Shown: positions 4,613 to 32,291, counted from the stretch's first letter. The stretch: DNA of 45,545 bases from a virus (IMGVR_UViG_3300033141_004712:1-45545), one strand, 5' to 3'. The notes: generated from the letters alone by a model not told the origin. Numbers and translations: made by a program.

Positions 4613-4852
4613 TTATTTCTTTTTCCCTTCCACAATAGCGACAATCTTTGCAAGCAGTTCATCATCCTTTTTTGAAGGCGTGAACTTCGCAATCGCTCTT
4701 GCAATACTGTATATCATCACAATTGCAGCCACTATCTTCGCCGAAATTTCAGGCGGTATTAGATTTTGAACTGCAAAATATATCGCCGCTACTGACGATA
4801 GAACCGACAACCAGAACTCCGTTGTTTTCCAACCTTCTTTTATTTCTTTCAT
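4613..4852 (-). CDS. putative holin
   Basis: A 79-residue protein with two hydrophobic segments, about residues 12-30 (FWLSVLSSVAAIYFAV) and 36-55 (ISAKIVAAIVMIYSIARAI), and a charged C-terminus. This is a typical holin layout. It lies close to the M15 endolysin. The start at 4852 has AAGGAGGTGA 5-6 nt upstream, an almost perfect anti-SD match. An in-frame ATG at 4918 also has a ribosome site (GGAAGG) and would add 22 basic residues, so a longer second form is possible. Confidence 0.7.
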   Translation of the reverse strand: MKEIKEGWKTTEFWLSVLSSVAAIYFAVQNLIPPEISAKIVAAIVMIYSIARAIAKFTPSKKDDELLAKIVAIVEGKKK

Positions 4853-4921
4853 CTTATTCACCTCCTTTTTAACCTTGAAGAACGCCTTAATCATTCGCCA
4901 CATTTGTTTGATTTTCATTTT

Positions 4922-5119
4922 CTACCTTCCCTTTTGTTTTCTCTTTTTCTTCTTTTTAGCAATCTTATCACCAATTTTATTATCGGTGTAAGGGGGAACG
5001 TCATTACTCCCTTCCTGCTCATCCATCTCTTTTTCCACCTTTTTAACTCTCTTTCCATAGTCCCAAACATACACTGTCCTTTTAGCAGATTTTGATTTTC
5101 TTTTCTTCATATTTCCCAT
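4922..5119 (-). CDS. small basic protein, 65 residues
   Basis: Lysine/arginine-rich at both ends with an acidic middle (EKEMDEQEG). An AGGAG site precedes the start. It sits between the endolysin and the holin and overlaps the endolysin 3' end. No hydrophobic segment, so it is not a holin or spanin by itself. No family recognised. Confidence 0.6.
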   Translation of the reverse strand: MGNMKKRKSKSAKRTVYVWDYGKRVKKVEKEMDEQEGSNDVPPYTDNKIGDKIAKKKKKRKQKGR

Positions 5120-5564
5120 CCACTCCTAAAAAGATTTTTCTTTCCGTCGTGCCACCCGAGATATGAAGCCAACGCTTGCGTGGTTTAGTCCTCTTCTCAA
5201 TTATTATTCTATGAAACGGCAGCCCTTCTTTAACGGCGAAAATGATAATATCCTCTATCCCTGTTTCAAAGTCATCGTAGTCCCAAGAGGGTTGAACAAT
5301 GTCCACCGCTAAACCTCTGGTATGCCTGCTATTTGTTGCACCACCGACCCGAGAATTGAGTTTTTTACCCCGAAACCCACTTGAAATTATGAACTTACCA
5401 AACCTATCGGATAGTGGGTCTATCACTGCTTTGAGAAAATCGTGCAATGGAATAATGAACGGTATTGTCTCTATTCTGTTTATATCTTGCAAATCTCTGT
5501 GGTTAGTGCCAGAGACCTCGTAATAGGTATAATACCGGGAAACCTTAAAATCAGGGACAATCAC
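5082..5564 (-). CDS. endolysin, M15-family peptidase
   Basis: A 160-residue enzyme of the VanY/Peptidase_M15 type that cuts peptide cross-links of peptidoglycan. The core is SGFRGKKLN (62-70), then SRHTRGLAVDI with zinc ligands H81 and D88, then RWLHIS with H134. This is the H-x6-D...H arrangement of the family. No signal peptide, so release depends on a holin, which is encoded nearby. The start is a GTG that overlaps the preceding stop (GTGA) with GGGAG upstream. Confidence 0.9.
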   Translation of the reverse strand: MIVPDFKVSRYYTYYEVSGTNHRDLQDINRIETIPFIIPLHDFLKAVIDPLSDRFGKFIISSGFRGKKLNSRVGGATNSRHTRGLAVDIVQPSWDYDDFETGIEDIIIFAVKEGLPFHRIIIEKRTKPRKRWLHISGGTTERKIFLGVDGKYEEKKIKIC

Positions 5565-5800
5565 GGCAATATTCTCCCTACAATTTTTTCTGCAACTATG
5601 GTTGCTATTATAGCAATTATTGAAGCACCGAGAGTAACCTTTAGTGCTAATGTATCAAATTTGCGTAAAAGCCCTTTACGACCTTCATCACCGTAGATAG
5701 TTTTTTCGTGTTTATCCACAAGTGCTTTGATATAAGATATGTCCTTCTGTATCCTGACAATATTTATCTTTATTTCGCCGATGTCTTTATTTACGCTCAT
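5561..5800 (-). CDS. XhlA-like/holin-like small membrane protein
   Basis: A 79-residue protein with an N-terminal coiled-coil-like stretch (about residues 5-45, IGEIKINIVRIQKDISYIK) followed by one hydrophobic segment (ALKVTLGASIIAIIATIVA) and a short tail. This is the layout of XhlA-type proteins that act with holins. It directly precedes the endolysin with overlapping GTGA, and its own start overlaps the previous gene (ATGA). Confidence 0.65.
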   Translation of the reverse strand: MSVNKDIGEIKINIVRIQKDISYIKALVDKHEKTIYGDEGRKGLLRKFDTLALKVTLGASIIAIIATIVAEKIVGRILP

Positions 5801-6467: not shown

Positions 6468-9400
6468 TCATGGTATCTCTAAACAATTTAATATTAAAGT
6501 TCCTGTAAAATTACTATTTATATCAAATACTATTGATGTTATTTTTGTAGTGCTATACCACCCACCATTATGAATTTGAGAGCCATAACGGTCACTGCTT
6601 ACAGCACCGATATTAGAATAGATTGCATGCCAATTTTGACGATAATTTTGAATATTAATTTCACCATTTATTTCATAAGAACTTCCAAATGGGTCTCTAA
6701 AAAAGAAAAAATTTGATGTAGTTCCTCTATCAATATTAACTGTATCCCAACTAACTCCAGTATGAACAAAAGATTGCAAAATAGTGCCATGATAATTATT
6801 GCCAGTATCTCCATTTAAATGATACCTAATTCCATAATATTGGGGGGAAGTTATAGCTCCAAATATATTTATTTTTATCATATCACACCAATCAGGAATT
6901 GTTAAAGTATAAGAGGAACTATTTATTAAATTTGTAGAAGATGCTATTGAAAATTGCCCTTTGTTTCTTATATATCCACTTGTGCTAACACTCAACACAT
7001 ACCCATCGCTCGTGTCAGAATTGCTGTCAATTGTCAGGGCATAGGTTTCAGAACTATTGGCATTTATTGTCATTGAACTTGACAACGTCATTCCACCTGC
7101 CACATCTATATTGCTTCCGCTTTCTGTCATTATGCTATCACCGACGGCATTGGCGGAAGTAAATTTAGCAATCTTGCCAGTAGTGCCAGAACCGCCTACA
7201 CCTGCAGCGGCACTTGTCTGCTTTGTGCCGTCTGGAAATATTATACCACCTGAATATGTGGAAGAAGATAAAATGATATTGCCATCTTTCACATCAAGTT
7301 TCTCGGAAGGCGAAGTCGTCCCTATGCCGACATTGCCATTATCACTGATTAACATTAAATCTTTAGAATTTTTATTGCTATAAAACCGAAAACCATAATC
7401 CCCCCAATATAAAAACTGGGCTTTTAACACATCGCCTATTTTGAATGAAATATAATCATTGTAGCCCACCGCACTATTTAGAAATAATTGTGTGTGTCCA
7501 GAGGCGGGACGATTTATTGAAACATCGCCATTTTCAACTTCTAACTTATAAGAAGGCGAATTTGTTCCAATCCCAACCTTTCCCCCACTCACCACAAAAG
7601 TAGAGCCACCGACGGAAAAGTCGCTGTTTTGGAAGGTTACCGAAGAGGTTTCAGTGAGGTCAATTTTATCACCTAAAGCGGATTGTATGTCGCTGTTTAT
7701 GCCAGAAGTGTTCTGTATGTCGCCGTAAATACTCCCAGAGGCGTTTATATTGCCGGTGTTTAACTCTGTTGTGTCTATTATCCCATTATCGCTTATCGTA
7801 GTGCAAGGCGGAGCTCCGCAACCATCGCCTATACCAATAACATCATTAAAAGTAGTAGAACTCTGGAAGGTATGAACCCCTGTCCAGTTATAGTTAGCCG
7901 ATTGGTCTGCCGTTAATCCTGTTAAATTTGAACCATCGCCATAATATGTTGCATTAGTAATTAAATTGCCATTCATATCTAAATCAGTGCCAAAAATAGA
8001 ACCGCCAGAAGATAATCCAAGAATTTGACTGCCGCCAGCATAAAGTCGCAAATAACTTGACTCGTTATTTCTTATGACCGCACCTAAAGCATTGTCATAA
8101 TATATGCGTAAACCGTCATTTATGGTATTGCCCTCTAAAGCATTTGTAAATAAAAGGGACTTTGAACATGAAGCCCCGTGTAATTGAATTGTGCCAGCAG
8201 CAGGCGTGGCAATATTATACCCCATAGCGCCTGCACCGCTAATATATAATTGGCTGGAAGTCTTTAATTGGTAATTACCTAAATCCACTTCGCCTGTCGC
8301 TCCAGAATAAGGAACTTTATCCGCCTCAAGCGTAGCGGTAGAAGTCTCAAGGTCGTCAATGTCAGAAGCATTGGTAGATACATTTCCTGCTATTGTGGTA
8401 GTATCAGTCGCTATGGCATTATCAGCCGCTTGCCTGTCGGCTATTTCCTGATTTAGGTTTGCTTCCAGCGTGGCAGTGGAACTCTCAAGATTGGCAATAT
8501 CAGTATCATTTGAGGTAATTTCAGTTTGCAAATCTCCTGTTGATACCTGCAAATTGTAAATATCAGTATCATTGCTGTCAATTTGGCTTTGAAGATTTGC
8601 AGTAGATGTCTTCAAATCTGCCACATCATTTTGCAGCACCACTATTTGTGGAGTGAGGTTTGAAGCGGGTATGGCAACATTGGAAGGGGAAGTCCCGCCA
8701 AAATATATCTCAATGTCAGGCGAACCCCCATTGCCATAAACATAAGCGTATCCCGCCACTTCTACCCTGTCGCCGTCGTCTAATTTAATATCGGTTGAAG
8801 AAGTAATCAAATCATACAATTGCGGCGTGGATTGTAATTCCCCCGAGTAACCAGTGGTTGAAATAACAATTTCTTCCCCGCCTGATTTGCGAATAGTGAT
8901 AACGCCATACAATCTGACATTTTTATTACCAGAAGTTTTTGCGCCGTAAATCTTTATATCCCATTGCCCAGCGACAATATCCCTTGTAAGCGGAAAGCCG
9001 TCATTCGTAACCCACCGACCAAGTAACGTGTTTCCGTCAGATAGTGAATTGTAGGTAATCGTTGAAACAGAGGAAAGTGTGTTACTTGAATACATTACAT
9101 AGTGCCCGCCGATGTCGGAGGTGTCGTTTGTGAAGTAGTAATTCTCAACGCCTGAAACAGAGGGCGCGTCCCAATACATCGTTCCGTCGGTAGAAATGTT
9201 TAGAACATACCCCTTCCCCACTTTCCCGTTGAATGGCGGTAAGTAATAGGTGAAACTTGAAACTTGATTTCCCGCGTTAATTATAACATTGTAAGTGCCT
9301 GTTGAAAAAATCAAATCAGCATTATTCAAAATAAGGTTTCCTGTCATCGTATCGCCTGATTTAAGAACATTTTGAGAGGCATAACCACCTTCAATATTTA

Positions 9401-9917
9401 TCCCACCTGAAATGTTGCCAGCACCGTCCAATAAAACCAACTGCCCTGCACTGTTAAAAGAGTTCCCTTGCAAAGTAATAGAAGAAGATAATAATGTTAA
9501 GGGATCGCCTACCGTGCCATCTCCTGTAAATTGAGCAGCATCCGAGACAATAGCCACAGAACCAACTCCAGCGGAAGTTTGGCAGGTCCCATCTGGAAAG
9601 CATATCCCTTGCACTGTGCCATCTGTGGTAGAGATATAAATTGTTACATTTTCTAACTTTATTTTTTTATTGTGTTTATCAACGCAAAAAATGGTATTAC
9701 CAATACACTCCTGATATTTAGGAGGCACATCGCCTATTGACAATAAATCAGTGTCATCCGCCAAACTTCTGAAATTTTGGTTTATTGCGCCCACATCTAT
9801 TGTGGTTTTGACATCAGTAGGGTAGTAAGGGACTTCATCCCCCGCACGCAATTCTTGTAATTGGGGGATGATGATAAAGAAAACCAAAACCTTCGCTAAA
9901 GTCTTCAAAGTCCCCAT
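6468..9917 (-). CDS. tail fibre/spike protein with signal-peptide-like N-terminus
   Basis: A 1149-residue repetitive protein, probably the receptor-binding fibre. Residues 1-25 form a signal-like segment: lysines, the hydrophobic core VLVFFIIIPQL, then LRA-GD. Two copies of a fibre motif (GIGTNSPSYKLEV and GIGTTSPSEKLDV) and two FPDGT-Q-TSA motifs follow. A coiled-coil heptad-like stretch lies around residues 430-540 (repeats of SNDTDI and ESSTATLEA). The C-terminal 150 residues are non-repetitive and rich in aromatic residues and Asn, probably the tip. It follows the largest ejection protein, the T7 gp17 position. The start overlaps the preceding gene; ribosome site weak. Confidence 0.85.
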   Translation of the reverse strand: MGTLKTLAKVLVFFIIIPQLQELRAGDEVPYYPTDVKTTIDVGAINQNFRSLADDTDLLSIGDVPPKYQECIGNTIFCVDKHNKKIKLENVTIYISTTDGTVQGICFPDGTCQTSAGVGSVAIVSDAAQFTGDGTVGDPLTLLSSSITLQGNSFNSAGQLVLLDGAGNISGGINIEGGYASQNVLKSGDTMTGNLILNNADLIFSTGTYNVIINAGNQVSSFTYYLPPFNGKVGKGYVLNISTDGTMYWDAPSVSGVENYYFTNDTSDIGGHYVMYSSNTLSSVSTITYNSLSDGNTLLGRWVTNDGFPLTRDIVAGQWDIKIYGAKTSGNKNVRLYGVITIRKSGGEEIVISTTGYSGELQSTPQLYDLITSSTDIKLDDGDRVEVAGYAYVYGNGGSPDIEIYFGGTSPSNVAIPASNLTPQIVVLQNDVADLKTSTANLQSQIDSNDTDIYNLQVSTGDLQTEITSNDTDIANLESSTATLEANLNQEIADRQAADNAIATDTTTIAGNVSTNASDIDDLETSTATLEADKVPYSGATGEVDLGNYQLKTSSQLYISGAGAMGYNIATPAAGTIQLHGASCSKSLLFTNALEGNTINDGLRIYYDNALGAVIRNNESSYLRLYAGGSQILGLSSGGSIFGTDLDMNGNLITNATYYGDGSNLTGLTADQSANYNWTGVHTFQSSTTFNDVIGIGDGCGAPPCTTISDNGIIDTTELNTGNINASGSIYGDIQNTSGINSDIQSALGDKIDLTETSSVTFQNSDFSVGGSTFVVSGGKVGIGTNSPSYKLEVENGDVSINRPASGHTQLFLNSAVGYNDYISFKIGDVLKAQFLYWGDYGFRFYSNKNSKDLMLISDNGNVGIGTTSPSEKLDVKDGNIILSSSTYSGGIIFPDGTKQTSAAAGVGGSGTTGKIAKFTSANAVGDSIMTESGSNIDVAGGMTLSSSMTINANSSETYALTIDSNSDTSDGYVLSVSTSGYIRNKGQFSIASSTNLINSSSYTLTIPDWCDMIKINIFGAITSPQYYGIRYHLNGDTGNNYHGTILQSFVHTGVSWDTVNIDRGTTSNFFFFRDPFGSSYEINGEINIQNYRQNWHAIYSNIGAVSSDRYGSQIHNGGWYSTTKITSIVFDINSNFTGTLILNCLEIP

Positions 9918-12900
9918 TTTTTTCTATTCCTTTTTATTGTATCACCAACTGATTGGTAATACTTTTTCATTTTCTCATAATCACCTTTTTCTCTTGCTTC
10001 TTTTGCCTTTTTAAGTCTTTTTCGTATATAATTAGTGTAGTAATATCTCATTCTTCTCAATACTCCCCGTTCTTTAGGGGTTATCTTTTTGCCACTATAT
10101 TTTTCTTGTAATTCTGTAAATTTTTCAAAGAAATCTCTTATATGCCGTGATGGTGTATGTGGAGACTGAACAAAGAGAGATTTGATTAAGGGAAAATCTC
10201 TTGCCAATAGTGTCTCGCTAAATTTACTAAAATCCAATTGCTCAAAAAAACCGCCAGTGCTGCTTTTAATTATATGCTGCACCTGAACAGGGGAAAGTTT
10301 AACCCCAAATGCAACAAGCCCTTTGGAAAGTATTTTAGAAATTTCCCAAGTATCCGCTTTATATCGTTGTTCTATAGGTTTTCTTTTCATACCCTCTGTT
10401 TCTATTGGTGTCCCAAAGTAGGTGCGGTTGGCTTCTATGGATTGAATAATCTCCAACACATTGGGAATAATAGGTGGTTTAAGACCTCGCAGAAGTTCCT
10501 TGCTGGCTTCTTTTATGGGTTTTATCTCTTTTTCATCCATACTGCACAAAGCAGCAAGAGGCAGAGAGATAAAAATGCCACCTAATGTAAATGGTATTGG
10601 TAATGCTGTTATATTTTCATCATTTACTTTAATAAACCAATGTGTTAATTTGTAACCCCAATCCATATCTTTATACCAATCCTCGTTTCTGTATGTAAGA
10701 TGTTGCACCACAGCCGGGACTGTCATATATATCAAACTCTTTGAAATAACCTGTTGAGGATTACGCTTTAATTCCCTCATTAGTTTACTTATATCTTGCA
10801 CATTGGCATTAAAAAATGCTGAAATTTGATTAACATATTTGCCAACCCTACCTGCCCTGCTAAAATTGATTGTTAAATCCTGCCCGGATACAAAAGCATA
10901 CATTGCTTTTTCATAATCAGTCCACTTGGGTCTTTCTTTCTCAAGTATTTCCAGCATTTTCTTAAATTCTGTGGCTCTCGGCCCCAATTCTGGAATACCT
11001 ATTACACCTCTTGTCCATTGCATAAAGGCGTGCATAGATTTAATCGGATGATTGATAAATTTTAGTCTTTTACCAGTCTTTTTAAATACAAGGTCAGAAA
11101 AAGCATTCTGCGCCGCTATCATATCAGCGCCAGCTACATAACTCATTGACCCGCCCATTGCTTCAAATCTGCGTAATACATTTTCAGGAGCAGCGGTGTG
11201 GACTTTAAATATCCCTGTTAATGCCTCTCTAAAACCCAAACCAGTCTTGCTATATGCGATAGCACTTAATATATCCCTTGCAGGATTTTTAATAAGAAAG
11301 GCAAGTTTTGCCTGTGTAGCCCCCCACCTAATCATACGGGGAAGAGCGGCTAAAACTTTCATTGCTTCTCTCACCATAGCCCCATTTATATCGGATAATG
11401 AGTTATACAATTGTGTGTCCGCAATTTCAAAATACCGCCTTTTATAACCTTTATCAGTTTTGTGCAAGACAGAAATAACCTTTTGTGTGCCGGGAACATA
11501 CCCATTGGCATCAGTAAAAAGAGTTAACAAGGTATCTTTGTGAGTTTTTAATAATCTTTCATCAAAACCCAACGAAGCCAATTGGTCTTCTAACTTTGAT
11601 AAATGGAACTTTTTGACTTGTGCGGGATATATTTCTTTAAAATATTTCAAAATATACCGGTTGCCTGCTATTTTATAAGAATTATCATATAACTCCGCTA
11701 TTGCCTGTGAAATGCGAGTTCTATGCTCCCTTGTCAGCATTTCAGTGGCATAAGACATTAAAGATTCTATGGCGCCTTCAATTGGCACATTATGCCCTCT
11801 TCTTGCTTTTAAACGAGAAGGGGCAAACTTCCCCGCTGCTCCTGTGGCTTTGGCAGCCACATATTCAGAGGGTAATTGTGCCGCCTGCTCTGGTATACGC
11901 ATAGTGCGGACAGGAATAAAGAAAGGATTTGCCTTTCTCATCCTTAGTAAATCATTTTTGCTTAATCCGCCCGCTTCTGCTAACCTTTCTACAAATTGCC
12001 AAGCCCAATTATTTACTTCTTTGGCAGTATGTGACCATACAGAATTTTCATATTTTTGAATAAAAGCAAGCGCCTCTTCTTCAGGCATAATATGCCGCAA
12101 GCCACGCTTGGCATAAACTAAAGCGTTGAGAGCGTGTAAATAATCAGAAAATAGAGCTAATTGCTCGCCCGGTATTGGCTCTAAAATTTTTTTGAGTGAA
12201 GGGCCAACATATCTGCCCACACTATCAACAGAAGCAACATTTATCATATGATCTGCTATGGCAGCTGCCTTGTTTCTTACTCCTGTCATGGTATAATAAA
12301 CGCTGGCAGTAATTGGTATGCGCTTTTCTTCAAAATATCCCTTACCATAAACCCCTTCTTCTATCCATTTCCAAGAAATTATCTCATCTTCAAAATTTGT
12401 CCGAAGGAATTTCTTTCCTGCTTCAGTATATCCCTTAATGCCTTTTGTCGCCACTAACCTACCACCAACATTAGTATAAGAGGCAATGCGGTCTTCCACT
12501 CCTTGTGTTATATACCGCCGTATCATATTTTTTAATTCACTTAAATTAAGGGCTATACTTCGGTCTTTATCTATGAGATAATTAAAAAATACCTGAGTAA
12601 ATGTATCTTTTTCATCTGTCTTCTTACCTAAAAGCCAACCCTTCAACCATTCAGCAAAACCTTCGTTAAATCGTCCCTTTTTGGCATAATCCTTGCTGGC
12701 TATACGGTCTAACATGGCATTATAATTACGAGCCGTGCCCTTATAATAAGGCATTAGTTCTCTTGCTGTTTTAGCAAGTGAACGCCCAACATTATTAAGT
12801 TTAGAAGCGATATCGTGCGCAATTTCGTGGGATAAATACTCATAATCCAATACATCTCTGGCAATAATCGTCCCACTTTCAAGAGGCATTTTAGCGGCGA

Positions 12901-14365
12901 CATCTTTGCCCAATCTCTTCCTTTTTGGGCCATAAATAGTAATAGAAAATCTATCTTTTATAAATTGCTGTATTTGTATAGGTGTTACAATGCCCTCTTT
13001 CCCCAATGCTTCAGAAGTTTCCTCTAAAAATTTTCTTTCAGCAGCCGCTTGCTCTGACCGCATAACCATTGCTTCTTCTATATCCTTTTTACATCTTGCT
13101 TGCACAGTCTCTTTTGGAGGAATAGCAGCCCCTGTTTTCTCTTTATTTTCCTCTAATTTTCTCATTAAATATTCAGAATAATATTCTTTTTCACTCTTTG
13201 AAGCTTCTAATGGCTTCATCATATCATCAAGTTCTCTTGCTATCTTGGAGTCGTGGATTGCCACATCTTTTTTTATTTTATTAAGCGTATGTTCTGCTTT
13301 GGCTATTTGGGTTCGCAATGGCAAACTTTTATCCTTTTCAGAGGCAATTGTAAGATTTACCAATTTTTGATATATTTGCTTAAATTTATACTTTTTTAAC
13401 CCAATTTCGGCATTTTTCTTTAAATCGGCGAGAACCCCCTTTGTCCATTGCTGGAATTTACTTATATCAATCCCAGAATGCTCCAATATCTCCTTGATAG
13501 TAGGATTTTTTACCATAAACTTTTTATCGGTAAAAGTTTTAAAAAATTGCCTACCATAAATTTCCGTCGTAGCAGCCGCAGTCGGCGCTGCTTTTGCTCC
13601 CCAAGCAGAAAGCCCACCAGAAGCAATCACAGCTGCTAAAAAATGCCCCACCCGTATGGCTTTTTTCTCAATATCAGTGGCGCCTTCTCTTATAAATTTT
13701 TCAGGTGGTAAATATTTATCAATGGCTAAAAATGTTCCTAAATCAAGAACTGTTAATAGGGGATTAGTATACACAGCATATCCCAAAGCAGCAAAGGTCC
13801 CTAATTTCAATGCGCCCATACCTGTATCTTTAGCCAAATCTTTTAATCTGGGGTCTGGCTCTCGTCCCAAATTATCAACAACCCATTTAGTTACATAATC
13901 CTCTTCATTTTCTATGACTTCTTTGATTGGCACATTATATGTCTTTGCCATATCATTTATTAAAGTGGCCTTTGCTATTTCACTTTCAGAACTACCCGGT
14001 AAAGCCGTTTTTAATTTTTCAAGTGCTATATCCCATAAAGTCCTTTTTGGCATAGGTTTAAGTTCAGGGATTACTTTACCGGTAAAGGGGTCTCTTTTTA
14101 ATGTTAATGAGGGCTTTGGCCGTTCAAAAGCACCAAGAAGGTCTGTTTTTATCTCCGTCTTTTCTGGAATAAAAATAGGCAGCTCTTTTTTTGTTTTTTC
14201 TATTTCGCCAAATTCTATATCTTTGGCAAATTGCGGGTAATTCATTATAATTGCTTTAGATAATTCATAATCCCCAAATTTGCGTAAAGCAGGATATTTT
14301 TGTTTTATTTGCTGCGCAAAATCAGAAAAATTGATTTTTTCAGTTTTAGTATTATTGGGTGGCAT
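9905..14365 (-). CDS. large internal/ejected virion protein with metallopeptidase motif
   Basis: A 1486-residue protein in the position of T7 gp16. It contains a gluzincin-like zinc peptidase signature, S-H-E-I-A-H (H513, E514, H517) followed by N-E-G-F-A-E-W (566-573), where a downstream Glu would be the third ligand. The region after about residue 1040 (NPARDILSAIAYSKTGLGF) resembles domains found in phage polyvalent proteins. Long helical, Lys/Glu-rich stretches suit an ejection protein. No transglycosylase motif is seen, so the peptidase may replace it for cell-wall or inner-protein processing. Start overlaps the previous gene. Confidence 0.75.
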   Translation of the reverse strand: MPPNNTKTEKINFSDFAQQIKQKYPALRKFGDYELSKAIIMNYPQFAKDIEFGEIEKTKKELPIFIPEKTEIKTDLLGAFERPKPSLTLKRDPFTGKVIPELKPMPKRTLWDIALEKLKTALPGSSESEIAKATLINDMAKTYNVPIKEVIENEEDYVTKWVVDNLGREPDPRLKDLAKDTGMGALKLGTFAALGYAVYTNPLLTVLDLGTFLAIDKYLPPEKFIREGATDIEKKAIRVGHFLAAVIASGGLSAWGAKAAPTAAATTEIYGRQFFKTFTDKKFMVKNPTIKEILEHSGIDISKFQQWTKGVLADLKKNAEIGLKKYKFKQIYQKLVNLTIASEKDKSLPLRTQIAKAEHTLNKIKKDVAIHDSKIARELDDMMKPLEASKSEKEYYSEYLMRKLEENKEKTGAAIPPKETVQARCKKDIEEAMVMRSEQAAAERKFLEETSEALGKEGIVTPIQIQQFIKDRFSITIYGPKRKRLGKDVAAKMPLESGTIIARDVLDYEYLSHEIAHDIASKLNNVGRSLAKTARELMPYYKGTARNYNAMLDRIASKDYAKKGRFNEGFAEWLKGWLLGKKTDEKDTFTQVFFNYLIDKDRSIALNLSELKNMIRRYITQGVEDRIASYTNVGGRLVATKGIKGYTEAGKKFLRTNFEDEIISWKWIEEGVYGKGYFEEKRIPITASVYYTMTGVRNKAAAIADHMINVASVDSVGRYVGPSLKKILEPIPGEQLALFSDYLHALNALVYAKRGLRHIMPEEEALAFIQKYENSVWSHTAKEVNNWAWQFVERLAEAGGLSKNDLLRMRKANPFFIPVRTMRIPEQAAQLPSEYVAAKATGAAGKFAPSRLKARRGHNVPIEGAIESLMSYATEMLTREHRTRISQAIAELYDNSYKIAGNRYILKYFKEIYPAQVKKFHLSKLEDQLASLGFDERLLKTHKDTLLTLFTDANGYVPGTQKVISVLHKTDKGYKRRYFEIADTQLYNSLSDINGAMVREAMKVLAALPRMIRWGATQAKLAFLIKNPARDILSAIAYSKTGLGFREALTGIFKVHTAAPENVLRRFEAMGGSMSYVAGADMIAAQNAFSDLVFKKTGKRLKFINHPIKSMHAFMQWTRGVIGIPELGPRATEFKKMLEILEKERPKWTDYEKAMYAFVSGQDLTINFSRAGRVGKYVNQISAFFNANVQDISKLMRELKRNPQQVISKSLIYMTVPAVVQHLTYRNEDWYKDMDWGYKLTHWFIKVNDENITALPIPFTLGGIFISLPLAALCSMDEKEIKPIKEASKELLRGLKPPIIPNVLEIIQSIEANRTYFGTPIETEGMKRKPIEQRYKADTWEISKILSKGLVAFGVKLSPVQVQHIIKSSTGGFFEQLDFSKFSETLLARDFPLIKSLFVQSPHTPSRHIRDFFEKFTELQEKYSGKKITPKERGVLRRMRYYYTNYIRKRLKKAKEAREKGDYEKMKKYYQSVGDTIKRNRKKWGL

Positions 14366-15308
14366 TGGCTTCCCTAATTTTCTTGATGGTGGTTTCTATT
14401 TCTTTTACAAATGGGTTTATTGGTTGCGCCGTGCTTGGTATCGTGTCTGGTGCCCCACCTGCCCCACCTACTGCTCTGCCTACGCCCGCTTCTGCTACAT
14501 CGGCTGATTTTCTAAAAGGAGCTGTGATAAATTCTTTAAATAATTCCCAAAAACTTGTTTTATTTTCTCCCTCTATTTTGCCTTTTCCTTTTAAAAGCTC
14601 TTCTAACTGCTTTTTAAGTCCTTCAGCAAAAATCTTGTCATCTGTATTTATAGCAGGATTTTTAAGAAAAGCATTGATAATGTTTAATGTTTCTTTGGCT
14701 GTTTCTATTGTAAGTTCTCCATCTCTATATGCTTGTATTACTTTCCCAAAACTCTTTTTTATTTCACTTTGTCCTTTTCCAGAAAATCCCCCATAATAAT
14801 TAACTAAATGAGTTTTTAATGTGTTAATATTTATCGCTTTTACAGTTTTCCCTCTTATTGTAGCATCTTGAACAAGAGTAGGGAATTGTTTGATAATTCC
14901 GGGCGCTGTTATCCATTGTTTTTCTTGCGCAAATCCCAATTTATTTGCTGCCAAATCAGCGAGAAATTGCTTATAGGATATTTTTTTACCTTCTGGCGTT
15001 CTAACGAAACCCCTTTCAAATTCCGCTTGGCTTAAATCTGCCTTAATTTTTTGTGATTTTGCGGTTGCTAATGCTCTGTAAACATTAAGAGGAACTTCGG
15101 GTGCGCTTATATTAAACCATTCCTTCATTTCATCGGTTAACGGCACCATATCTTTCTTTTTGGCGTATTTGGCTGTCGCAACCTGTGCTAACCCCTTAGC
15201 AAGAGCGGATAAAAATCCTTGCTCCGGGTTAGGATATTTTGCTTCTATCGCTTTCATCGCTATTTGAAAAGCAGCGTTTAAATCGGGTTCTGGTATAAAT
15301 TTAGCCAT
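14352..15308 (-). CDS. putative internal virion/ejection protein (gp15-like position)
   Basis: A 318-residue protein starting at MAKFIPEPD. The start is set by AGGAGG upstream and by a TAATG overlap with the previous stop. Mostly helical, Ala/Lys-rich, with a Gly/Ala-rich low-complexity segment near residue 280. No catalytic motif visible. Its place between two other ejection-type proteins suggests an internal core protein. Function is inferred from gene order only. Confidence 0.6.
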   Translation of the reverse strand: MAKFIPEPDLNAAFQIAMKAIEAKYPNPEQGFLSALAKGLAQVATAKYAKKKDMVPLTDEMKEWFNISAPEVPLNVYRALATAKSQKIKADLSQAEFERGFVRTPEGKKISYKQFLADLAANKLGFAQEKQWITAPGIIKQFPTLVQDATIRGKTVKAININTLKTHLVNYYGGFSGKGQSEIKKSFGKVIQAYRDGELTIETAKETLNIINAFLKNPAINTDDKIFAEGLKKQLEELLKGKGKIEGENKTSFWELFKEFITAPFRKSADVAEAGVGRAVGGAGGAPDTIPSTAQPINPFVKEIETTIKKIREANATQ

Positions 15309-15919
15309 TACTTGCCTCCTAAGAAATATGCAGCACCTATTTTGGCGGCCGCTCCGAGAACATCGCCCCAAAGACCAGCTTGAGATTGCTCTTTCATTGC
15401 GTCTTTGTATGCTTTCAATTGTTGTTGTGTTAATTCAATCTTCTTTTGCAAAGCATATTGCTCCCCCAACGCTTGCGCTAAGGCATAATACATCTGCCTG
15501 TTGGCTTGAATATCAAATCCTCTGGCCTTCATTATCGCTTCCGCCATATATTGCGCCTTTTGCATAGCCACTTTGGCAATCATTTGCTCTTTTAATGCGG
15601 CGGCTTTTTCCCTCGCCCCTGCTATGGCGGCGGCTTCAATATCGCTACCCCGCAAACCTCTCGCAGCTATATCGGATTGTGCGGCCGCTGCTAAACCTTC
15701 CCCCTGTTGTGTTATTTGCTCTAAAAACGGCTTTAGCAATGGGCCTTGCGCCGCTAATTGCTGTTGCACATAAGGCAAAGCAGAACTCATCGTTTCTGTT
15801 TGCGATTGTCTGATTAAATCAAATATATTTTTAGGTGTAGCAGCAACCTGCTCTGGTATCCTAAAATCAAAACTCGGTAATCCCGGCAACCCGGGCAATC
15901 CGCCTGTCCCGTCACTCAT
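15308..15919 (-). CDS. putative internal virion/ejection protein (gp14-like position)
   Basis: A 203-residue protein that starts after GAGGAGG. The N-terminus has a GLPGLPGLP repeat. The rest is Ala/Gln-rich and strongly helical (AAAAQSDIAARGLRGSDIE, QKKIELTQQQLKAYKDAM), ending with a small Gly/Ala hydrophobic stretch. The composition and place after the nozzle gene match small ejection proteins of podoviruses that insert in the host envelope. No catalytic motif. Confidence 0.6.
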   Translation of the reverse strand: MSDGTGGLPGLPGLPSFDFRIPEQVAATPKNIFDLIRQSQTETMSSALPYVQQQLAAQGPLLKPFLEQITQQGEGLAAAAQSDIAARGLRGSDIEAAAIAGAREKAAALKEQMIAKVAMQKAQYMAEAIMKARGFDIQANRQMYYALAQALGEQYALQKKIELTQQQLKAYKDAMKEQSQAGLWGDVLGAAAKIGAAYFLGGK

Positions 15920-15977
15920 AATGCCTCCTCATATCTCTATATTATAAATATAATATACTAACATTTCAATATACTTA

Positions 15978-18911
15978 TTATTCCCAGCCCTTAATACTAT
16001 ACACTACTCTTATACCATAGACTTCCACTGGCCCTTGGTCACCCGTGTATGAAATCCCCAAAGACAACCAATGGAATGTGGCTGCTTGATTATTTGGGAC
16101 TGGGAACTCCGCCACAAAATAACCTTCTTCTAATGCTTCACTTAAATCAACTGAACTTAAAGAATAAGCCGTTGTGCTGCCGTCAATATAATAATTAAGT
16201 GTTAAATCTATGTTTTGGTTTGGCAATTCTTCCGATTTGAGTAAAAGGTAAATTCGTTTTAAAAGTTTACGCTCCAAAGGATTGCCAAAATCATAATCGG
16301 AAGTTTTAAATGAAAAATCAAAATCATTACCAGCATCATCAAGACCAATATTTTGTTTGTAAATATACCCAGTATCTTTGCTATCTCCTGTATAAAATTC
16401 ATTACGATAAATAGCAGCACTTCTGGCATAAATATCATCAAATAATGTCCATCTATCGTTTTTATCTAAAATGAGTGCGTGGTCATTATACGGATCACCC
16501 ACTGTATTGGTAGTATAAAATAACCAATATCTGTCATCATAAAGCCCGGAAGCGACGGGGGGTCTGTTCGCCCCTTCATTCCATTCTACTGTTAATGCAT
16601 CCACCCGGACGGTTTCTGTCGCCGCAGTGGGATTTAATACGAATTTAGCACCTAAATATGGTGATGTAGAAACAGAGATTGAGGTATTGGCAATCTGAGA
16701 AACCCAATTTGCTGTAGACCTTGTTACTTCATTACAAGTTGTGCCTGTGGAAATATAATAAGATATACTGGAATTGCCGTCTATGTATTGTGAAGGCCTA
16801 AAATTGCCCCAAGAGGTTATACCAGAAGCGTCCACACAATCTGTGATAAAGTAACCTGTGGACATCGCTTTTAAAGAATAATCATATAAAATCGGCGTTG
16901 TTGTGCTATATGTTGTTGTAAAACTGGACACAAATTGCCAATATCTTTTTGTAAAATCAAAAGATTGTATTTCTTCTTGTGTCGCCAAATCAACCCAATT
17001 ATCCCAAGAAGAACCATCATTGCTTTGCCTGACTGCAAAGGATAAATCTGTCCCTTTAGAAGAAGAAGTAGAAAAATTACTTGAGAATGCTCCGATAACT
17101 GTTTTGTCTAATGAAGTATCTAATGCTTCTGACATATAATAACCAGAATCATAATATATGCCTGTATTATAAATATTATCTATATAAACATGGGGCGCAC
17201 TACCTGTGGCATAACCATCGTATATATATATATTTCTGTAAGTGTTTTGAGAATAGGTGTCATCAGAAGCAGTAATACTGGGTGAACTTTCATCATCAAA
17301 ATAGACACTAAAATCACCATTTTCCTCTCTCTCCACTCTAAACCAAATAGCATCTTTAGAACCCGAAGTAGCACTGCCAATTTCTACTAAAGAGCCATTG
17401 TCAACCCTATATAATTTAACAACCTCATCAGCTGGATAGGTGCCTACTGAACTTTCAAGGCAATAACCATTAGTTGAAGAGTAATCTGATTTGTTTGATA
17501 TAAAATAATATCTCACTTTTGTATTTTCATAAGTATAGATATAAAACTTCCATTTCCCAAAACCTCTTGAATCATCTTGACTATAAAAATTAGCGCTTGC
17601 TGAAACATCATCATTTCTATATACTTCTAAATACCCTGAAGATGCTCTCGCATAAGAACAATCACCACTACAAACCCAAGTGGGATTATCAGTATAATTA
17701 CCATCTGAAAAATCATCATATAACACCAAACTTCCTGAATAATCCAATGTTAAAGCGCCATTCACTATTTCAGTTGTAACTTTTACTAAAGTGCCATCAT
17801 CAAATTGATAACTTTCTGTTATTGTTATCCCCCAAGTAGAAGGAACAATGCTACCCGGATATATTGTAGTAGATGTCCACTCGCCGTTTGAAAGCCCCGC
17901 TTCCCATTCCGCTTGAGTATTATATGTCTTTGTCCTCTTATTACCTGCCGATTTTATCAATTCATCTATATTCTCTTTTATCGGGTCTGAAACTCTGGTT
18001 ATTTTAGTGCCACAAAGTTTTTCTATACCTCTGTTAGATAGCCAAATAAGGCAATTATCTTTAAATTGCACGCTATTATTGTCAATACACCCCACTTCCC
18101 CGCTTATTTTGCGTAATTTAAAATTACGCCTATCACTGCCATATAAAGCCCATAAATCATATTCTCTGCCAATAAAAAATGCTCCTTGATATTCGCCCAT
18201 TAAACAGGTTACATTATTGCCATCATTGAGACCAGAAATATCAATAGAAGCAGGGGTTGTGGACTTGCCGGGGACTTTTAAATCCCAGTCTGTGCCATCG
18301 CCTTCACCAGAGAGAAGTATCCTTGTCTTTTTGCCCGCTATATCCGCTGCCACTATTCTATTGGCGAAGGTGGACACAAGTTCCGCCAAAGGAAAATCCG
18401 CCACAGTGCTGGTGGATGTCCCATCCCAATAAAACGGAGTATCAATACCATTGGAACACCACAATTTACCCAGCGCCTGCACACAAGAGAAATCATTTTC
18501 CGTGTTAAAGCCAGAAAGCCCATCTATTGCGGTGCAGTCGCCGATACCGGTACTATAAAAGAAACTTTGGCTGGAGTTTATTACAAGATATTGGCGCCCA
18601 TCTGTCGCATTAAACGCCCAAAGCCCTCTTATCGCTTTCTGGTCCTGACAAGGAGTAGCATTGTATTTCGCATAACCCTTTCTTCGTGAAATAGAAAGAT
18701 TTTCATCGTAATATATGTTAAGGGCTTCTTTTAAACAAGAGGGGGGGATTTTAATCGGGGAATATTGGGTAACTAATCCGCATTGAGAAAATTCAGGGTA
18801 TATAAAACTTTTTTCAACTTCTGTCGGCTGTTTAGCACATACTCCTATTGCCAATATTGCTTGAATTATTGGCATTATCATTAAAATATTTAATCTGTAA
18901 AACCATTTCAT
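15978..18911 (-). CDS. tail nozzle protein (gp12-like) with signal-peptide-like N-terminus
   Basis: A 977-residue protein. The ATG at 18911 follows AAGGATTG and is preferred over an in-frame TTG at 18917. Residues 1-28 look like a signal peptide: basic start, hydrophobic ILMIMPIIQAILAIGV, then V-C-A before K, a good type I cleavage site. The N-terminal mature region has the nozzle-like pattern of an N-I-Y-Y-D-E-N segment followed by S-R-R-K-G-Y-A-K-Y-N. The rest is beta-rich with many Ser/Thr/Tyr/Asp residues. It lies next to the adaptor gene, as in T7-like tails. The repeated TATGGATTAAAA segment lies upstream. Confidence 0.75.
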   Translation of the reverse strand: MKWFYRLNILMIMPIIQAILAIGVCAKQPTEVEKSFIYPEFSQCGLVTQYSPIKIPPSCLKEALNIYYDENLSISRRKGYAKYNATPCQDQKAIRGLWAFNATDGRQYLVINSSQSFFYSTGIGDCTAIDGLSGFNTENDFSCVQALGKLWCSNGIDTPFYWDGTSTSTVADFPLAELVSTFANRIVAADIAGKKTRILLSGEGDGTDWDLKVPGKSTTPASIDISGLNDGNNVTCLMGEYQGAFFIGREYDLWALYGSDRRNFKLRKISGEVGCIDNNSVQFKDNCLIWLSNRGIEKLCGTKITRVSDPIKENIDELIKSAGNKRTKTYNTQAEWEAGLSNGEWTSTTIYPGSIVPSTWGITITESYQFDDGTLVKVTTEIVNGALTLDYSGSLVLYDDFSDGNYTDNPTWVCSGDCSYARASSGYLEVYRNDDVSASANFYSQDDSRGFGKWKFYIYTYENTKVRYYFISNKSDYSSTNGYCLESSVGTYPADEVVKLYRVDNGSLVEIGSATSGSKDAIWFRVEREENGDFSVYFDDESSPSITASDDTYSQNTYRNIYIYDGYATGSAPHVYIDNIYNTGIYYDSGYYMSEALDTSLDKTVIGAFSSNFSTSSSKGTDLSFAVRQSNDGSSWDNWVDLATQEEIQSFDFTKRYWQFVSSFTTTYSTTTPILYDYSLKAMSTGYFITDCVDASGITSWGNFRPSQYIDGNSSISYYISTGTTCNEVTRSTANWVSQIANTSISVSTSPYLGAKFVLNPTAATETVRVDALTVEWNEGANRPPVASGLYDDRYWLFYTTNTVGDPYNDHALILDKNDRWTLFDDIYARSAAIYRNEFYTGDSKDTGYIYKQNIGLDDAGNDFDFSFKTSDYDFGNPLERKLLKRIYLLLKSEELPNQNIDLTLNYYIDGSTTAYSLSSVDLSEALEEGYFVAEFPVPNNQAATFHWLSLGISYTGDQGPVEVYGIRVVYSIKGWE

Positions 18912-18924
18912 TTTCAATCCTTTT

Positions 18925-18969
18925 AACTCTTTTATAGACCATATTTTAATCCATATTTTAATCCATATT
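18925..18969 (-). repeat. tandem repeat in the adaptor-nozzle gap
   Basis: About three copies of a 12-bp unit (minus strand TATGGATTAAAA and variants) fill the space between the adaptor stop and the nozzle start. It is one of several junction repeats in this window. No other signal is visible. Confidence 0.7.
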
Positions 18970-19704
18970 CTAATCTGTATTCAATTTACCATATCCTGCT
19001 GGCATTAAATTGGGTAAATAATTTGGTCTATTTACGCATACACCCCGCATATTTTGCACTAAAGAACCGAACATTTGAAAAAACAATTGTGCGTCTTTTG
19101 CATTTTCATCCATTATACTCATTTTATAGGCACAATAATAAACCAAAGCGTAGTGGAAAGCGTCAAATTCATTAACAGCGTCAAACGGTTCATCGCTGTC
19201 ACTTGACATTTCAGTAGAATAGGCAATATAATCCACTTTTATTGTTTCAGTATCTGTGGCGACACCCGGGAAGGGATATATACCTATCACTCCTCTTGTG
19301 GTAAAATCTACAAAATATTTCAACGGAGAACCTGTATCAGTATCCCAAGTGGGATTTTTATCAAGCGCAGCCAAAGAAACTTCAGGCAAAGGCATATCCT
19401 CGTATTTTACCCTCATTGTTGTTATAAAATCAGAGGGCATAGCATAATAGGTTGTGCCAACTATGGTATCAAATTCATATCGTTTACGCTGGCATTGGCT
19501 TAAAACATCTATCAATTTTTGTCCTTCATTTGCCCAAGAGGTTATTTGTGTATCGGTATATCTTTGGCGGGTAGATTGTGCGTCATTGACAAGGTATCTT
19601 GCCTCTGCTCTAATTTGTGATAATGTTAACGCTTCTAAAATTACGGGATTTGCGAAAAAGAAATTAAATATACCTAAAAAGATTAGAAAAATAATATATC
19701 TCAT
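18970..19704 (-). CDS. tail adaptor (gp11-like) with signal-peptide-like N-terminus
   Basis: A 244-residue protein. Residues 1-26 are strongly hydrophobic (IIFLIFLGIFNFFF) after an Arg, followed by A-N-P and L-E-A-L-T, which suits export. The mature part starts with LSQIRAEARYLVND and TDTQITSWANEGQKLID, an all-helical pattern like podovirus head-tail adaptors, then a beta region (YYAMPSDFITTMRVKYEDMPL). Position between capsid genes and the nozzle supports the adaptor call. Ribosome site weak. Confidence 0.7.
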   Translation of the reverse strand: MRYIIFLIFLGIFNFFFANPVILEALTLSQIRAEARYLVNDAQSTRQRYTDTQITSWANEGQKLIDVLSQCQRKRYEFDTIVGTTYYAMPSDFITTMRVKYEDMPLPEVSLAALDKNPTWDTDTGSPLKYFVDFTTRGVIGIYPFPGVATDTETIKVDYIAYSTEMSSDSDEPFDAVNEFDAFHYALVYYCAYKMSIMDENAKDAQLFFQMFGSLVQNMRGVCVNRPNYLPNLMPAGYGKLNTD

Positions 19705-19719
19705 TTTTCTTAATCACCA

Positions 19720-20154
19720 TCAATCGCCACTATCATATTCTTCTTCGCCACGAAGATATACAGTCCCTCCTACCCCGTCCTGAAGTCTACCATATAAAAT
19801 GGCTTCCGAATGATTTTCTAAAATTGAAAGGGATTGTCCAATAACCATACCTTTAGTATCATCTTTACATAAAACGCCTGAAGTCGTAGTGGTAGATAAG
19901 CAAATATACCCTGCCATAGCAGTAGAAGTGGTTTGTATAACTGCATATCTCCTTTTCGCTCTTTTAGGTAAAACCTGTGTCCACGAAGTAGAAGTGATGG
20001 AAATATTGAACGGCAATCTTGTGTCGCCATTATTTATGGAAATTTTATCAACAAATATCTTGCCTCTCGGTGCGGAATTGGTGTAAACACTGCCCAATAA
20101 TCCTATGGCGATAACACCCATAAGAAAAAGAAAATACTTTTTCATTACATTCAT
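19720..20154 (-). CDS. small secreted-type virion protein
   Basis: A 144-residue protein whose first 30 residues are signal-like (KKYFLFLMGVIAIGLLGSVY, then TNSAP). The remainder is beta-rich (SITSTSWTQVLPKRAKRRYAVI, TAMAGYICLSTTT), which suggests a small jelly-roll-like or decoration fold, but no family is recognised. Upstream, a 10-bp unit (TAGTGAGGTA) is repeated three times and its last copy supplies the ribosome site. Confidence 0.65.
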   Translation of the reverse strand: MNVMKKYFLFLMGVIAIGLLGSVYTNSAPRGKIFVDKISINNGDTRLPFNISITSTSWTQVLPKRAKRRYAVIQTTSTAMAGYICLSTTTTSGVLCKDDTKGMVIGQSLSILENHSEAILYGRLQDGVGGTVYLRGEEEYDSGD

Positions 20155-20156
20155 TG

Positions 20157-20190
20157 TTATACCTCGCTATACCTCACTATACCTCACTAT
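20157..20190 (-). repeat. triplicated ribosome-site segment
   Basis: Three adjacent 10-bp copies (minus strand TAGTGAGGTA, TAGTGAGGTA, TAGCGAGGTA) lie directly upstream of the gene starting at 20154. Each contains GAGGT, so the ribosome binding site itself has been multiplied. Confidence 0.8.
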
Positions 20191-20197
20191 ATCTCTT

Positions 20198-20695
20198 TTA
20201 ATTGAGGGCTACCCAATCGCCGCTATCATTAACCGTAGCCGTAGCCACATAAACTTTATGAGTCCCGGTGATATACAAAATAGACCCTTCTGAATAACCG
20301 CTTGTAGGTAAAGACGCTTTAGAGCCATAAAGTTTAAGGGGAACTCCCGTAGAAGCAGTGGATATACTAACTCCTACTGAAGTAGTGGTGATAGAAACAC
20401 TATCAGAACCAGTATAAGAGCCAGTATTTGTTATCCCCTCTCCTGTATAGGAGCCAGAATTGGTTATGCTTGTCCCAATATAAAGTTTTCTTACTTGATA
20501 AGATGCGGAACCTATATCAAGCGTGTTATCAACACCGGGAATAAAATGCTTGCTGGAATTAACACGCCAAAGGGAATAACCGTTCTCCATATCATAACCC
20601 ATAGTGCTATAATCCCCTGATTCACTGGCAATTTTGAGATAACCAAAAGAAGCAATTACTGCTAATATTCCCAAACAAAAAAGCAATTTTTTCAT
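20198..20695 (-). CDS. secreted-type fibre-like virion protein
   Basis: A 165-residue protein. The second of two adjacent ATGs (20695) is preferred for spacing to GGAGG. Residues 1-26 are signal-like (KK, then LLFCLGILAVIASFGYL, then IASES). The mature part has a fibre-type motif LDIGSASYQVRKLYIG and the repeats SGSYTGEG and TGSYTGSD, plus Ser/Thr-rich beta sequence. Perhaps a short collar or head fibre. It lies between capsid-region and tail genes. Confidence 0.65.
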   Translation of the reverse strand: MKKLLFCLGILAVIASFGYLKIASESGDYSTMGYDMENGYSLWRVNSSKHFIPGVDNTLDIGSASYQVRKLYIGTSITNSGSYTGEGITNTGSYTGSDSVSITTTSVGVSISTASTGVPLKLYGSKASLPTSGYSEGSILYITGTHKVYVATATVNDSGDWVALN

Positions 20696-20772
20696 CATAC
20701 CTCCATATTCTGACATATTCTAATGAAAGTCAAAAAGCTTTCTAAATTACTAAACTGCTTTAACTACTTTAA

Positions 20773-21279
20773 TTACCTGACTTTTCTTAACTTGTCAAGG
20801 TCGTTAATAGTAGGGTCGTCGGGCTCAAGCATAAGCCCCAATTCACGCCATTGGCGGATATAATGGTCTACTTCATGCCGCTTTAAAGCTTTTTGATAAG
20901 CCGACCGCCAATTTGGGTCAGTCCTGCTAACCACATTCATTTCGTTAAATGTCTCCAGATACGGAGCAAATCTCCTCTCAAGGTCAGCCCGCAATCGTTT
21001 AATCTTATCCCGCTTAACAGGGTCGTTTTCCCGTTTTGGGGAATAATTATCCAATTGCGATTTAAGTTTGCTTATTTCCTTCTTAATTTTCTCTTTATTT
21101 ATAGTAATAGATTCAAGTTCAGCAGCGACAAACTTGTCTTCTCTTACTTGTTTTTCAGCGTTTGCCATGTCTTCCAAACTTGAAATATTACTCTTTATTG
21201 ATTCCACCTCTCGGGGAGTTAGAACCATTTTTTTAGTAGATTCTTGTTCCGTATCTCTTGGGGTTTTTCTTGCAGCCAT
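20773..21279 (-). CDS. hypothetical charged coiled-coil protein
   Basis: A 168-residue protein, Lys/Glu/Arg-rich, with a likely coiled coil at about residues 25-85 (KEKIKKEISKLKSQLD) and a second helical region. GGAGGG lies upstream of the start. It directly follows the capsid gene. It could be a head-tail completion or assembly protein. No family recognised. Confidence 0.65.
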   Translation of the reverse strand: MAARKTPRDTEQESTKKMVLTPREVESIKSNISSLEDMANAEKQVREDKFVAAELESITINKEKIKKEISKLKSQLDNYSPKRENDPVKRDKIKRLRADLERRFAPYLETFNEMNVVSRTDPNWRSAYQKALKRHEVDHYIRQWRELGLMLEPDDPTINDLDKLRKVR

Positions 21280-21325: not shown

Positions 21326-22210
21326 TTATACTTGATGGCCATATATCCAGCGCCAATCAAGCGCCGAAATGGCAAAAGAAGTATAACCTGCGACCTTTGT
21401 TGATAAAGTATCAAACTCACCATCTCTGAAAAACTGGGTAGGTTCCCATTCCCTGAAGATAAGCTCTTCCTTCATCCGCTTGGAATTAACCATAAACCAG
21501 TTTGTAGAACTTTCAAGAAAGTTATCCCATATAATAACATTAAACTGCCCTTCCAGAAAGTTCTTGTTATTAAGGTCAGTATCCACTTTACCCATAGAGC
21601 GCAATATCTCATAAGCTTTTTCCTCTAAATCCATAGGGATTATCAGAGTATCAGGAATGTTATACATAATGTTGTCCCTATTGGTTTTGAGTTTTTTAAA
21701 GTTAAGTCTCGTGGTGGCTATGTTAGGCGCAGTAAACGCTAAAGAACCAACATTTGACTGGTTGCTGCCACCAACTTTTGAGGTATGCGCAGAATAGCAG
21801 AGAGGATTGCCATCGCCCACAGTGAAAGAGCCAAAAGCGTTATTAAATACATACGCTCCCATGCTCTCCCTTAAAGCCCTGAAAGCAACGGCTAATTCCT
21901 TTACCTTTCTTTCTATCACGCCATACAAGTCATTGCGAAGTAGTCTCCTCGTGATTTTAAGACCATAGGCATATTCCCTCTCACTGACCGACTTTGAGTA
22001 TCCTTCCCGGAAGTCATCGTATGGAATTTCCCCATTAAATTGAGGAACCGTTCCCAAATCTCCCGTTTCAAGGTCCGTTTCAACAGCTTGCTCGGCATCC
22101 TTGAACCTAAAGATATAAGGGAGCATAGAAACAAAGTCTCTGTAAGACTTTATAAACACTACAGAAAGCCCCTTAACTACTATTGAGGGCCATTTACCTT
22201 GTGTTATCAT
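21326..22210 (-). CDS. major capsid protein
   Basis: A 294-residue protein with the features of an HK97-fold capsid subunit: an extended N-terminal arm, a helix region (EREYAYGLKITRRLLRNDLYGVIERKVKEL), then a beta domain (DTLIIPMDLEEKAYEIL and QFNVIIWDNFLE). It resembles Mu gpT-like capsids in the NPLCYSAHTSK and NWFMV segments. Location after scaffold and portal genes supports it. Start preceded by AAAGGAGAT. Confidence 0.8.
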   Translation of the reverse strand: MITQGKWPSIVVKGLSVVFIKSYRDFVSMLPYIFRFKDAEQAVETDLETGDLGTVPQFNGEIPYDDFREGYSKSVSEREYAYGLKITRRLLRNDLYGVIERKVKELAVAFRALRESMGAYVFNNAFGSFTVGDGNPLCYSAHTSKVGGSNQSNVGSLAFTAPNIATTRLNFKKLKTNRDNIMYNIPDTLIIPMDLEEKAYEILRSMGKVDTDLNNKNFLEGQFNVIIWDNFLESSTNWFMVNSKRMKEELIFREWEPTQFFRDGEFDTLSTKVAGYTSFAISALDWRWIYGHQV

Positions 22211-27576: not shown

Positions 27577-27886
27577 TATATCCTCCTTTAATTAGTAACT
27601 TTTTTCGTATAACCTGCGCTGCTTCAAAAGCACGCATATAAACCATTTTTAATGAGTCTAAAAAAAATCCCGCTACTATTGGGGACATTGCATCAACCGG
27701 GATTGCGATATAAAATGTTCTTGTTTCGTTTTGATATTTTGCAAGAGGCGCAGCGACGGAAGGGAAATTGATTTTATCCAATTCCTCTTTTAGTTTTTGC
27801 TCTTCAGTTTGTTCTTCAGTCCGCTCTTTAGTTTGTTCTTTAGTTTGTTCTATGTTTTGGGTATTATCTTTAGTATCTTCAAACAT
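27545..27886 (-). CDS. hypothetical protein with Glu/Gln/Thr-rich N-terminus
   Basis: A 113-residue protein. The first 38 residues are low complexity with T-K-E-Q-T repeats; the rest is a compact domain (RTFYIAIPVDAMSPIVAGFFLDSLKMVY). The start at 27886 has GGGAGG upstream and overlaps the co-chaperonin stop. No family recognised. Confidence 0.65.
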   Translation of the reverse strand: MFEDTKDNTQNIEQTKEQTKERTEEQTEEQKLKEELDKINFPSVAAPLAKYQNETRTFYIAIPVDAMSPIVAGFFLDSLKMVYMRAFEAAQVIRKKLLIKGGYNGKEKKHFSA

Positions 27887-32001: not shown

Positions 32002-32008
32002 ACTGTAT

Positions 32009-32037
32009 AGTATACAAAATTTACGAAAGCATGTCAA
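32009..32037 (-). promoter_or_regulatory. sigma70-type promoter of the leftward (late) arm
   Basis: On the minus strand, TTGACA and TATACT are separated by 17 bp, a near-consensus promoter placed at the head of all leftward genes. It borders the repeat region; the predicted start point is about 32002. Confidence 0.8.
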
Positions 32038-32063
32038 GTCTAATACCAAAAGTTACTAACACT

Positions 32064-32228: not shown

Positions 32229-32291
32229 GACACTTCTAAACCTTGTTCTAATTATTAAACGGCGGGGAAAACACCACCCCTTACCCCACTT

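Follow-up and report, generated by a model that had tools for sequence, protein, structure and literature searches.

The virus record IMGVR_UViG_3300033141_004712 (hereafter the window, meaning the whole 45,545-nucleotide stretch, a 45.5-kb record without terminal repeats) encodes a short-tailed phage in which five tail-region proteins, namely two small proteins (small1 and small2), the head-to-tail adaptor, the nozzle and the fibre, begin with signal-peptide-like segments, whereas such segments are absent from the portal, scaffold, capsid and ejection proteins. At the level of sequence, we obtained direct support for conserved signal peptides, for cleavage motifs, for a split between head and tail genes, for a disulfide-type co-variation of cysteines and for the identity of the adaptor and nozzle as tail parts. 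Sec export, cleavage and disulfide bonding of the tail proteins are thereby strongly suggested. We think it reasonably probable that the window represents a lineage of tailed double-stranded DNA (dsDNA) phages with a two-compartment virion, in which cytoplasmic heads and disulfide-bonded periplasmic tails would be joined only at or after lysis. An earlier note, made from the sequence of the window, knew of no phage described with this pattern, and in the open-licence PMC full-text literature we likewise found none reported to have signal peptides throughout its tail gene set.

Signal peptides on the tail genes of the window and its relatives

As the earlier note had described, small1 (20198-20698), small2 (19720-20154), the adaptor (18970-19704), the nozzle (15978-18911) and the fibre (6468-9917), all on the minus strand, each start in translation with a basic n-region, a charge-free hydrophobic core and a small-residue c-region. 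This n-h-c architecture, with small residues at -3 and -1, is that of a Sec/signal peptidase I substrate. Cleavage is predicted between MMKKLLFCLGILAVIASFGYLKIAS and ESGDYS in small1 (signal peptide at ~20624-20698), between MNVMKKYFLFLMGVIAIGLLGSVYTNS and APRG in small2 (~20071-20154), between MRYIIFLIFLGIFNFFFANPVILEA and LTLSQIR in the adaptor (19630-19704, mature part 18973-19629), between MKWFYRLNILMIMPIIQAILAIGVCA and KQPTEV in the nozzle (18834-18911, mature part 15981-18833) and between MGTLKTLAKVLVFFIIIPQLQELRA and GDEVPYY in the fibre (9843-9917). None of the five cleavage sites has a lipobox (L-[AST]-[GA]-C) with Cys at +1. The nozzle was considered as a lipoprotein processed by signal peptidase II and rejected, because cleavage between VCA and K puts the Cys at -2 and there is no lipobox.

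N-termini were scored with hand-built log-odds for the n-, h- and c-regions (not SignalP), run over all plausible starts. On this scale, exported proteins of Escherichia coli ranged from +6 to +15, whereas no cytosolic protein exceeded -9; the polytopic membrane protein LacY gave +4.8, so the scorer does not split signal peptides from all membrane segments. In the window, scores were +10.0 for small1, +9.5 for small2, +6.2 for the nozzle, +4.9 for the adaptor and +2.9 for the fibre, the lowest of the five, although most fibre homologues keep the feature. The portal, scaffold, capsid, helical and ejection proteins scored about -48 to +1, or about -40 to +1 when all plausible starts were considered, which bears out the earlier statement that the head and ejection proteins have no such N-termini. 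Among them, the capsid scored -8.2, the portal -11.6, the scaffold was strongly negative and the helical protein reached -24.1 from its own start and at best -15.6 over alternative starts.

The next in-frame start of the window adaptor is codon 64, deep within the SU10_adaptor domain, and the in-frame alternatives within 100 codons of the nozzle start all lie inside the signal peptide; thus, neither gene has a start that would give a complete signal-less form. For small1, the start most probably lies either at 20695, as given earlier, or at 20698, and one at 20716 is also possible. Among the relatives, many start codons overlap the gene ahead by a few bases or lie directly next to its end, and AGGAG-type sites precede several of them.

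Relatives were gathered by capsid, adaptor and nozzle searches of IMG/VR and of genome contigs. Their adaptors are 27-45% identical to that of the window, and their GC contents range widely (for example, 0.38 in L012 and 0.60 in L016). The survey set comprised 14 phages, 13 with a readable tail and one (L020) represented by small1 only. A score of +2 or more was reached by 59 of the 62 tail-module genes compared with 2 of the 96 head and ejection genes (Fisher p ~5e-37, a value that is descriptive only because the genes of relatives are not independent), so that the comparison with related metagenomic phages proposed in the earlier note found the pattern to be general. All 11 copies of small1 (+7.6 to +14.1) and all eight of small2 scored as signal peptides, and the fibres of L009, L005, L008 and L010 gave +2.7 to +5.9. 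Two of the three misses, the L005 nozzle (MSLKS...VVAKLLSLILLFPPSLALA followed by QAEEK) and the L014 fibre (...AILWLAAAILMFMAAAGARA followed by AMPP), have a long n-region ahead of a clear hydrophobic core, and the third, the L016 fibre, has an ambiguous start. The L008 adaptor was excluded from the count because a frameshift in a T run breaks its signal region: at L008:9820-10320 a one-base shift splits the signal peptide, probably an assembly error.

Further observations concern the tail genes of these relatives. L012 (9294-10702) and L032 (9246-10708) carry a tandem pair of adaptor genes, each with its own signal peptide, and additional signal-peptide genes beyond the five families lie in the tail regions of L010 (7768-9871), L012 (4569-14021, including an 1110-amino acid protein ahead of the nozzle) and L028 (7229-9968).

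Nine phages served as controls, namely T7, P22, SU10, an Alcaligenes phage, three Manatee Spring phages, Roseobacter phage CRP-902 and Vibrio phage VPMS1. At a cut-off of +2.5, none of their 57 tail genes passed, compared with 1 of 61 head and ejection genes; that one is T7 gp14, so the score alone is no proof. Signal peptides were likewise absent from a distant contig (L019) with a weak nozzle match. In a tree of major capsid proteins, 12 signal-bearing phages fall on one side of a 100/100 branch, and L012 forms a long branch beside the signal-less phages, which fits one or two origins of the signal-bearing state. Homologues without the segment and with downstream starts, which according to the earlier note would refute the pattern, were seen only in distant phages such as VPMS1 and not within the family.

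Cleavage sites and cysteine pairs

The adaptor provides a test by homology that is independent of the scorer. The adaptor of VPMS1 (NC_021776, CDS 6563-7477) is homologous to that of the window, with 21% identity, but differs in having no signal peptide and in carrying its Met where the mature window adaptor begins: its N-terminus, M-TRIAEILTRVRDSLADP, aligns with the mature LTLSQIRAEARYLVND of the window adaptor. Similarly, the match to the SU10_adaptor profile starts at residue 27 of the window adaptor, at profile position 2. At the site fixed in this way, the residue at -1 in 14 signal-bearing adaptors is A in 11, S in two and C in one, and that at -3 is A in eight, V in two, S in two, G in one and L in one; these residues fit the signal peptidase I rule. 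The signal sequences themselves vary freely among relatives and retain their properties.

Overall cysteine content was rejected as proof of export. Mature tail proteins here contain 1.28% Cys compared with 0.29% in head and ejection proteins, but the controls point in the same direction. We therefore used co-variation instead. In an alignment of nozzles from 11 phages, 16 of the 22 variable Cys columns form eight pairs that are jointly present or absent in every phage (columns 52-67, 98-136, 154-163, 258-297, 309-323, 825-860, 840-916 and 972-986). When count-matched columns of other residues were drawn from the same alignment, so that relatedness was kept, paired columns averaged 1.9 and never exceeded 10 in 5000 draws, compared with the observed 16. 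In contrast, 11 T7-type nozzles (T7 and ten at 22-69% identity) had no co-varying Cys pairs among nine variable columns. The small2 columns 55-127 and 90-101 are also pairs that are each gained or lost jointly. We read the co-varying cysteines of the nozzle and small2 as putative disulfide bonds, which would fit folding in an oxidising compartment, the periplasm.

Overall, the -3/-1 residues, the divergent signals with retained properties and the Cys pairs favour cleavable export over a retained membrane anchor. Of the two options left side by side in the earlier note, export with tails finished outside the cytoplasm is thus the one to which the sequences point, and retention as anchors is disfavoured.

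Tail identity, gene order and known relatives

The adaptor matches Pfam SU10_adaptor (PF24175) with an E value of 1.7e-24 and lies above the curated cut-off in all ten relatives tested; against the PDB, its profile matches 8jov, a virion structural protein of phage GP4 (4e-8). For the nozzle, an AlphaFold model (mean pLDDT 69, pTM 0.48, with the propeller region mostly at 85-90) had as its best Foldseek matches in the PDB the nozzles or tail-tube proteins of Pa223 (5e-16), VP1, LME-1, Carin 1, cyanophage A4, P22 (gp10), T7 (gp12) and SU10. Adaptor and nozzle are true tail parts as judged by sequence for the former and by the model for the latter. Small2 is all beta in its AlphaFold model (pLDDT 75), a predicted exported beta-sandwich protein whose fold had no PDB match with E ≤ 0.001, and small1, with weak PHROG matches to tail fibre or spike proteins, is a predicted exported tail- or fibre-like protein. 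Behind the signal peptide of the fibre, alignment with relatives reveals a conserved N-terminal domain (motif VPYY..D(I/V)GAINQNFR.L), which we infer to be the attachment domain of the fibre.

The late genes run on the minus strand from ~32 kb to 2.7 kb in the order terminase, portal, scaffold, decoration-like protein, major capsid protein, helical protein, small1, small2, adaptor, nozzle, three ejection proteins, fibre, holin-like genes and M15 endolysin. Roles of the scaffold, decoration, helical and ejection proteins were assigned from gene order and composition. The portal (25034-27196; Pfam SU10_portal, 3.4e-14), the scaffold-like protein (23573-24505), the major capsid protein (21326-22210; Phage_capsid_4, 1.2e-11) and the helical protein (20773-21279, between capsid and small1, a position kept in relatives) are without signal peptides, as are ejection protein 1 (15308-15919) and ejection protein 2 (14352-15308, starting MAKF), both also without Cys, and the large ejection protein (9905-14365; LPD38). 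Beside LPD38, the last of these has an HExxH-type motif (HEIAH) and is possibly a peptidase. The lysis genes (5082-5800) comprise an M15 peptidase endolysin without signal peptide (5082-5564; Peptidase_M15_3, 1.1e-11) and a holin-like protein (5561-5800); a further holin-like open reading frame lies at 4613-4918. All of these genes up to 5082 are on the minus strand.

Other features of the window include a GroES-like co-chaperonin (27879-28280; Cpn10, 4.5e-7) between terminase and portal, and several signal-less relatives likewise have GroES/chaperonin-10 genes annotated near the portal or capsid. A region of ~2.5 kb without convincing genes (31953-34446) separates the divergent late and early modules, and the sign of the GC skew flips there. 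A zinc-finger protein with a DUF559 nuclease-like domain is encoded at 2724-3434. In L005 (1-2649), the large terminase subunit is interrupted by an apparent intein (CLAGDTLV ... VHN, then C).

The window shares with the podophages SU10, P22 and T7 its SU10_adaptor adaptor, SU10_portal portal and beta-propeller nozzle, and also the gene order capsid, adaptor, nozzle and ejection proteins; the same portal-adaptor-nozzle-fibre chain has been described for SU10 (PMC9509320). It differs from these three and the six other control podophages in that its family's tail genes carry the signal peptides that their tail genes lack, and from T7-type nozzles in the co-varying Cys pairs. The absence of export signals that goes with cytoplasmic tail assembly in modules of the SU10/P22/T7 type is thus not seen in this family. 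Filamentous phages (Inoviridae) have virion proteins, pIII and pVIII, that carry Sec signals and, until they are assembled, are located in the periplasm or inner membrane. The window family resembles them in having virion proteins with Sec signal peptides, but inoviruses are non-lytic single-stranded DNA filaments extruded through the envelope, with no head, portal, adaptor or nozzle, whereas the window phage has dsDNA, exports (by prediction) only its tail half and matches terminase, portal and capsid families that are foreign to inovirus-like assembly. Signal-anchor-release (SAR) endolysins also use Sec (PMC10820202); these and other exported lysis proteins are single enzymes of lysis rather than virion parts, and the window endolysin, unlike SAR endolysins, has no signal.

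No close isolated relative was found by tblastn of the window adaptor, nozzle and fibre and two divergent nozzles against 50,697 phage records, in which the window adaptor and nozzle had only distant matches and the fibre and the two divergent nozzles none. A genome scan gave one match, a 36-kb contig in a Verrucomicrobiota metagenome-assembled genome, on which the genes viewed were phage-like only; there was no further match among 388 Verrucomicrobiota genomes.

A proposed assembly route and its alternatives

We propose that the cytoplasm would be where heads, with portal, capsid and ejection proteins, form and take up their DNA. Once filled, a head would need some temporary plug; the signal-less helical protein (20773-21279) is perhaps a candidate head-completion or plug protein, given its position beside the capsid gene. 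The two small proteins, adaptor, nozzle and fibre would be synthesised in precursor form and translocated by host Sec; signal peptidase I would then remove the signals, and the proteins would fold in the periplasm, where their disulfide bonds would form. Contact with the portal would have to await the opening of the inner membrane by the holin, which probably comes late, given that the window has holin-like genes and an endolysin that lacks a signal. At or after lysis, the adaptor would close on the portal, followed by the nozzle and fibres. As a whole, from Sec export to the joining of heads and tails at lysis, we judge this route to be likely; export itself and the site and timing of assembly are what we infer from the genes.

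Several points weigh against the route. The signal peptide calls come from a home-made scorer and not from SignalP, the genes counted belong to related phages, and the whole case is sequence-based rather than experimental. Control phages are also richer in Cys in the tail (0.71%) than in the head (0.19%). Sec and Dsb are assumed for the host. In podophages described so far, the adaptor and nozzle are taken to seal the filled head while it is still in the cytoplasm, and DNA might escape from a head left open.

That the segments are uncleaved signal anchors, so that tail proteins would sit and assemble on the periplasmic side of the inner membrane and heads would dock at this membrane, is unlikely, although the hydrophobic cores of some members, such as the window adaptor and small1, are long and some phages' procapsids do assemble at the inner membrane. 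The cleavage-type residues ahead of the homology-fixed mature start in 14 adaptors argue against it, signal-less homologues show a full mature domain in the absence of the segment, and the virion would be burdened by a hydrophobic extension on each of 12 adaptor and 6 nozzle subunits. There are phages that use a single exported protein to block superinfection, shield the host surface or act as a decoy, and the exported forms here could serve such non-virion uses while cytoplasmic copies build the tail; we consider this very unlikely, as the window gene list has no second nozzle or fibre copy, the adaptor profile has a single match in 8 of 10 relatives tested and neither adaptor nor nozzle has a start yielding a complete signal-less form.

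It is similarly hard to credit, and if anything slightly harder, that the hydrophobic N-termini persist in mature particles and help to penetrate membranes at DNA entry. Membrane insertion is known for ejection proteins of other phages, and T7 gp14 scores like a signal peptide, but the window ejection proteins lack the segment, its sequence and length vary while cleavage motifs are kept, and the Cys pairing favours export. Chance hydrophobic N-termini or wrong starts could be suspected from the score of the window fibre and from the three family members below threshold; for the set as a whole this is already refuted by the counts over 14 phages and by the lack of a usable alternative start in the adaptor and nozzle, and its probability is close to nil.

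Tailed-phage assembly is taught as a cytoplasmic process in which the filled head is sealed by the tail, and a lineage that exports every tail part would break with this rule. If the proposed export and late joining are true, neither empty procapsids nor anti-phage sensors of the cytoplasm would come into contact with tail proteins. This raises the questions of how a filled head is plugged, by what means the adaptor and the portal, on opposite sides of a membrane, come together and whether export serves as concealment from intracellular defence or simply allows disulfide formation. Signal peptides on tail genes would also make it easy to search sequences for further phages of this kind and for their hosts.

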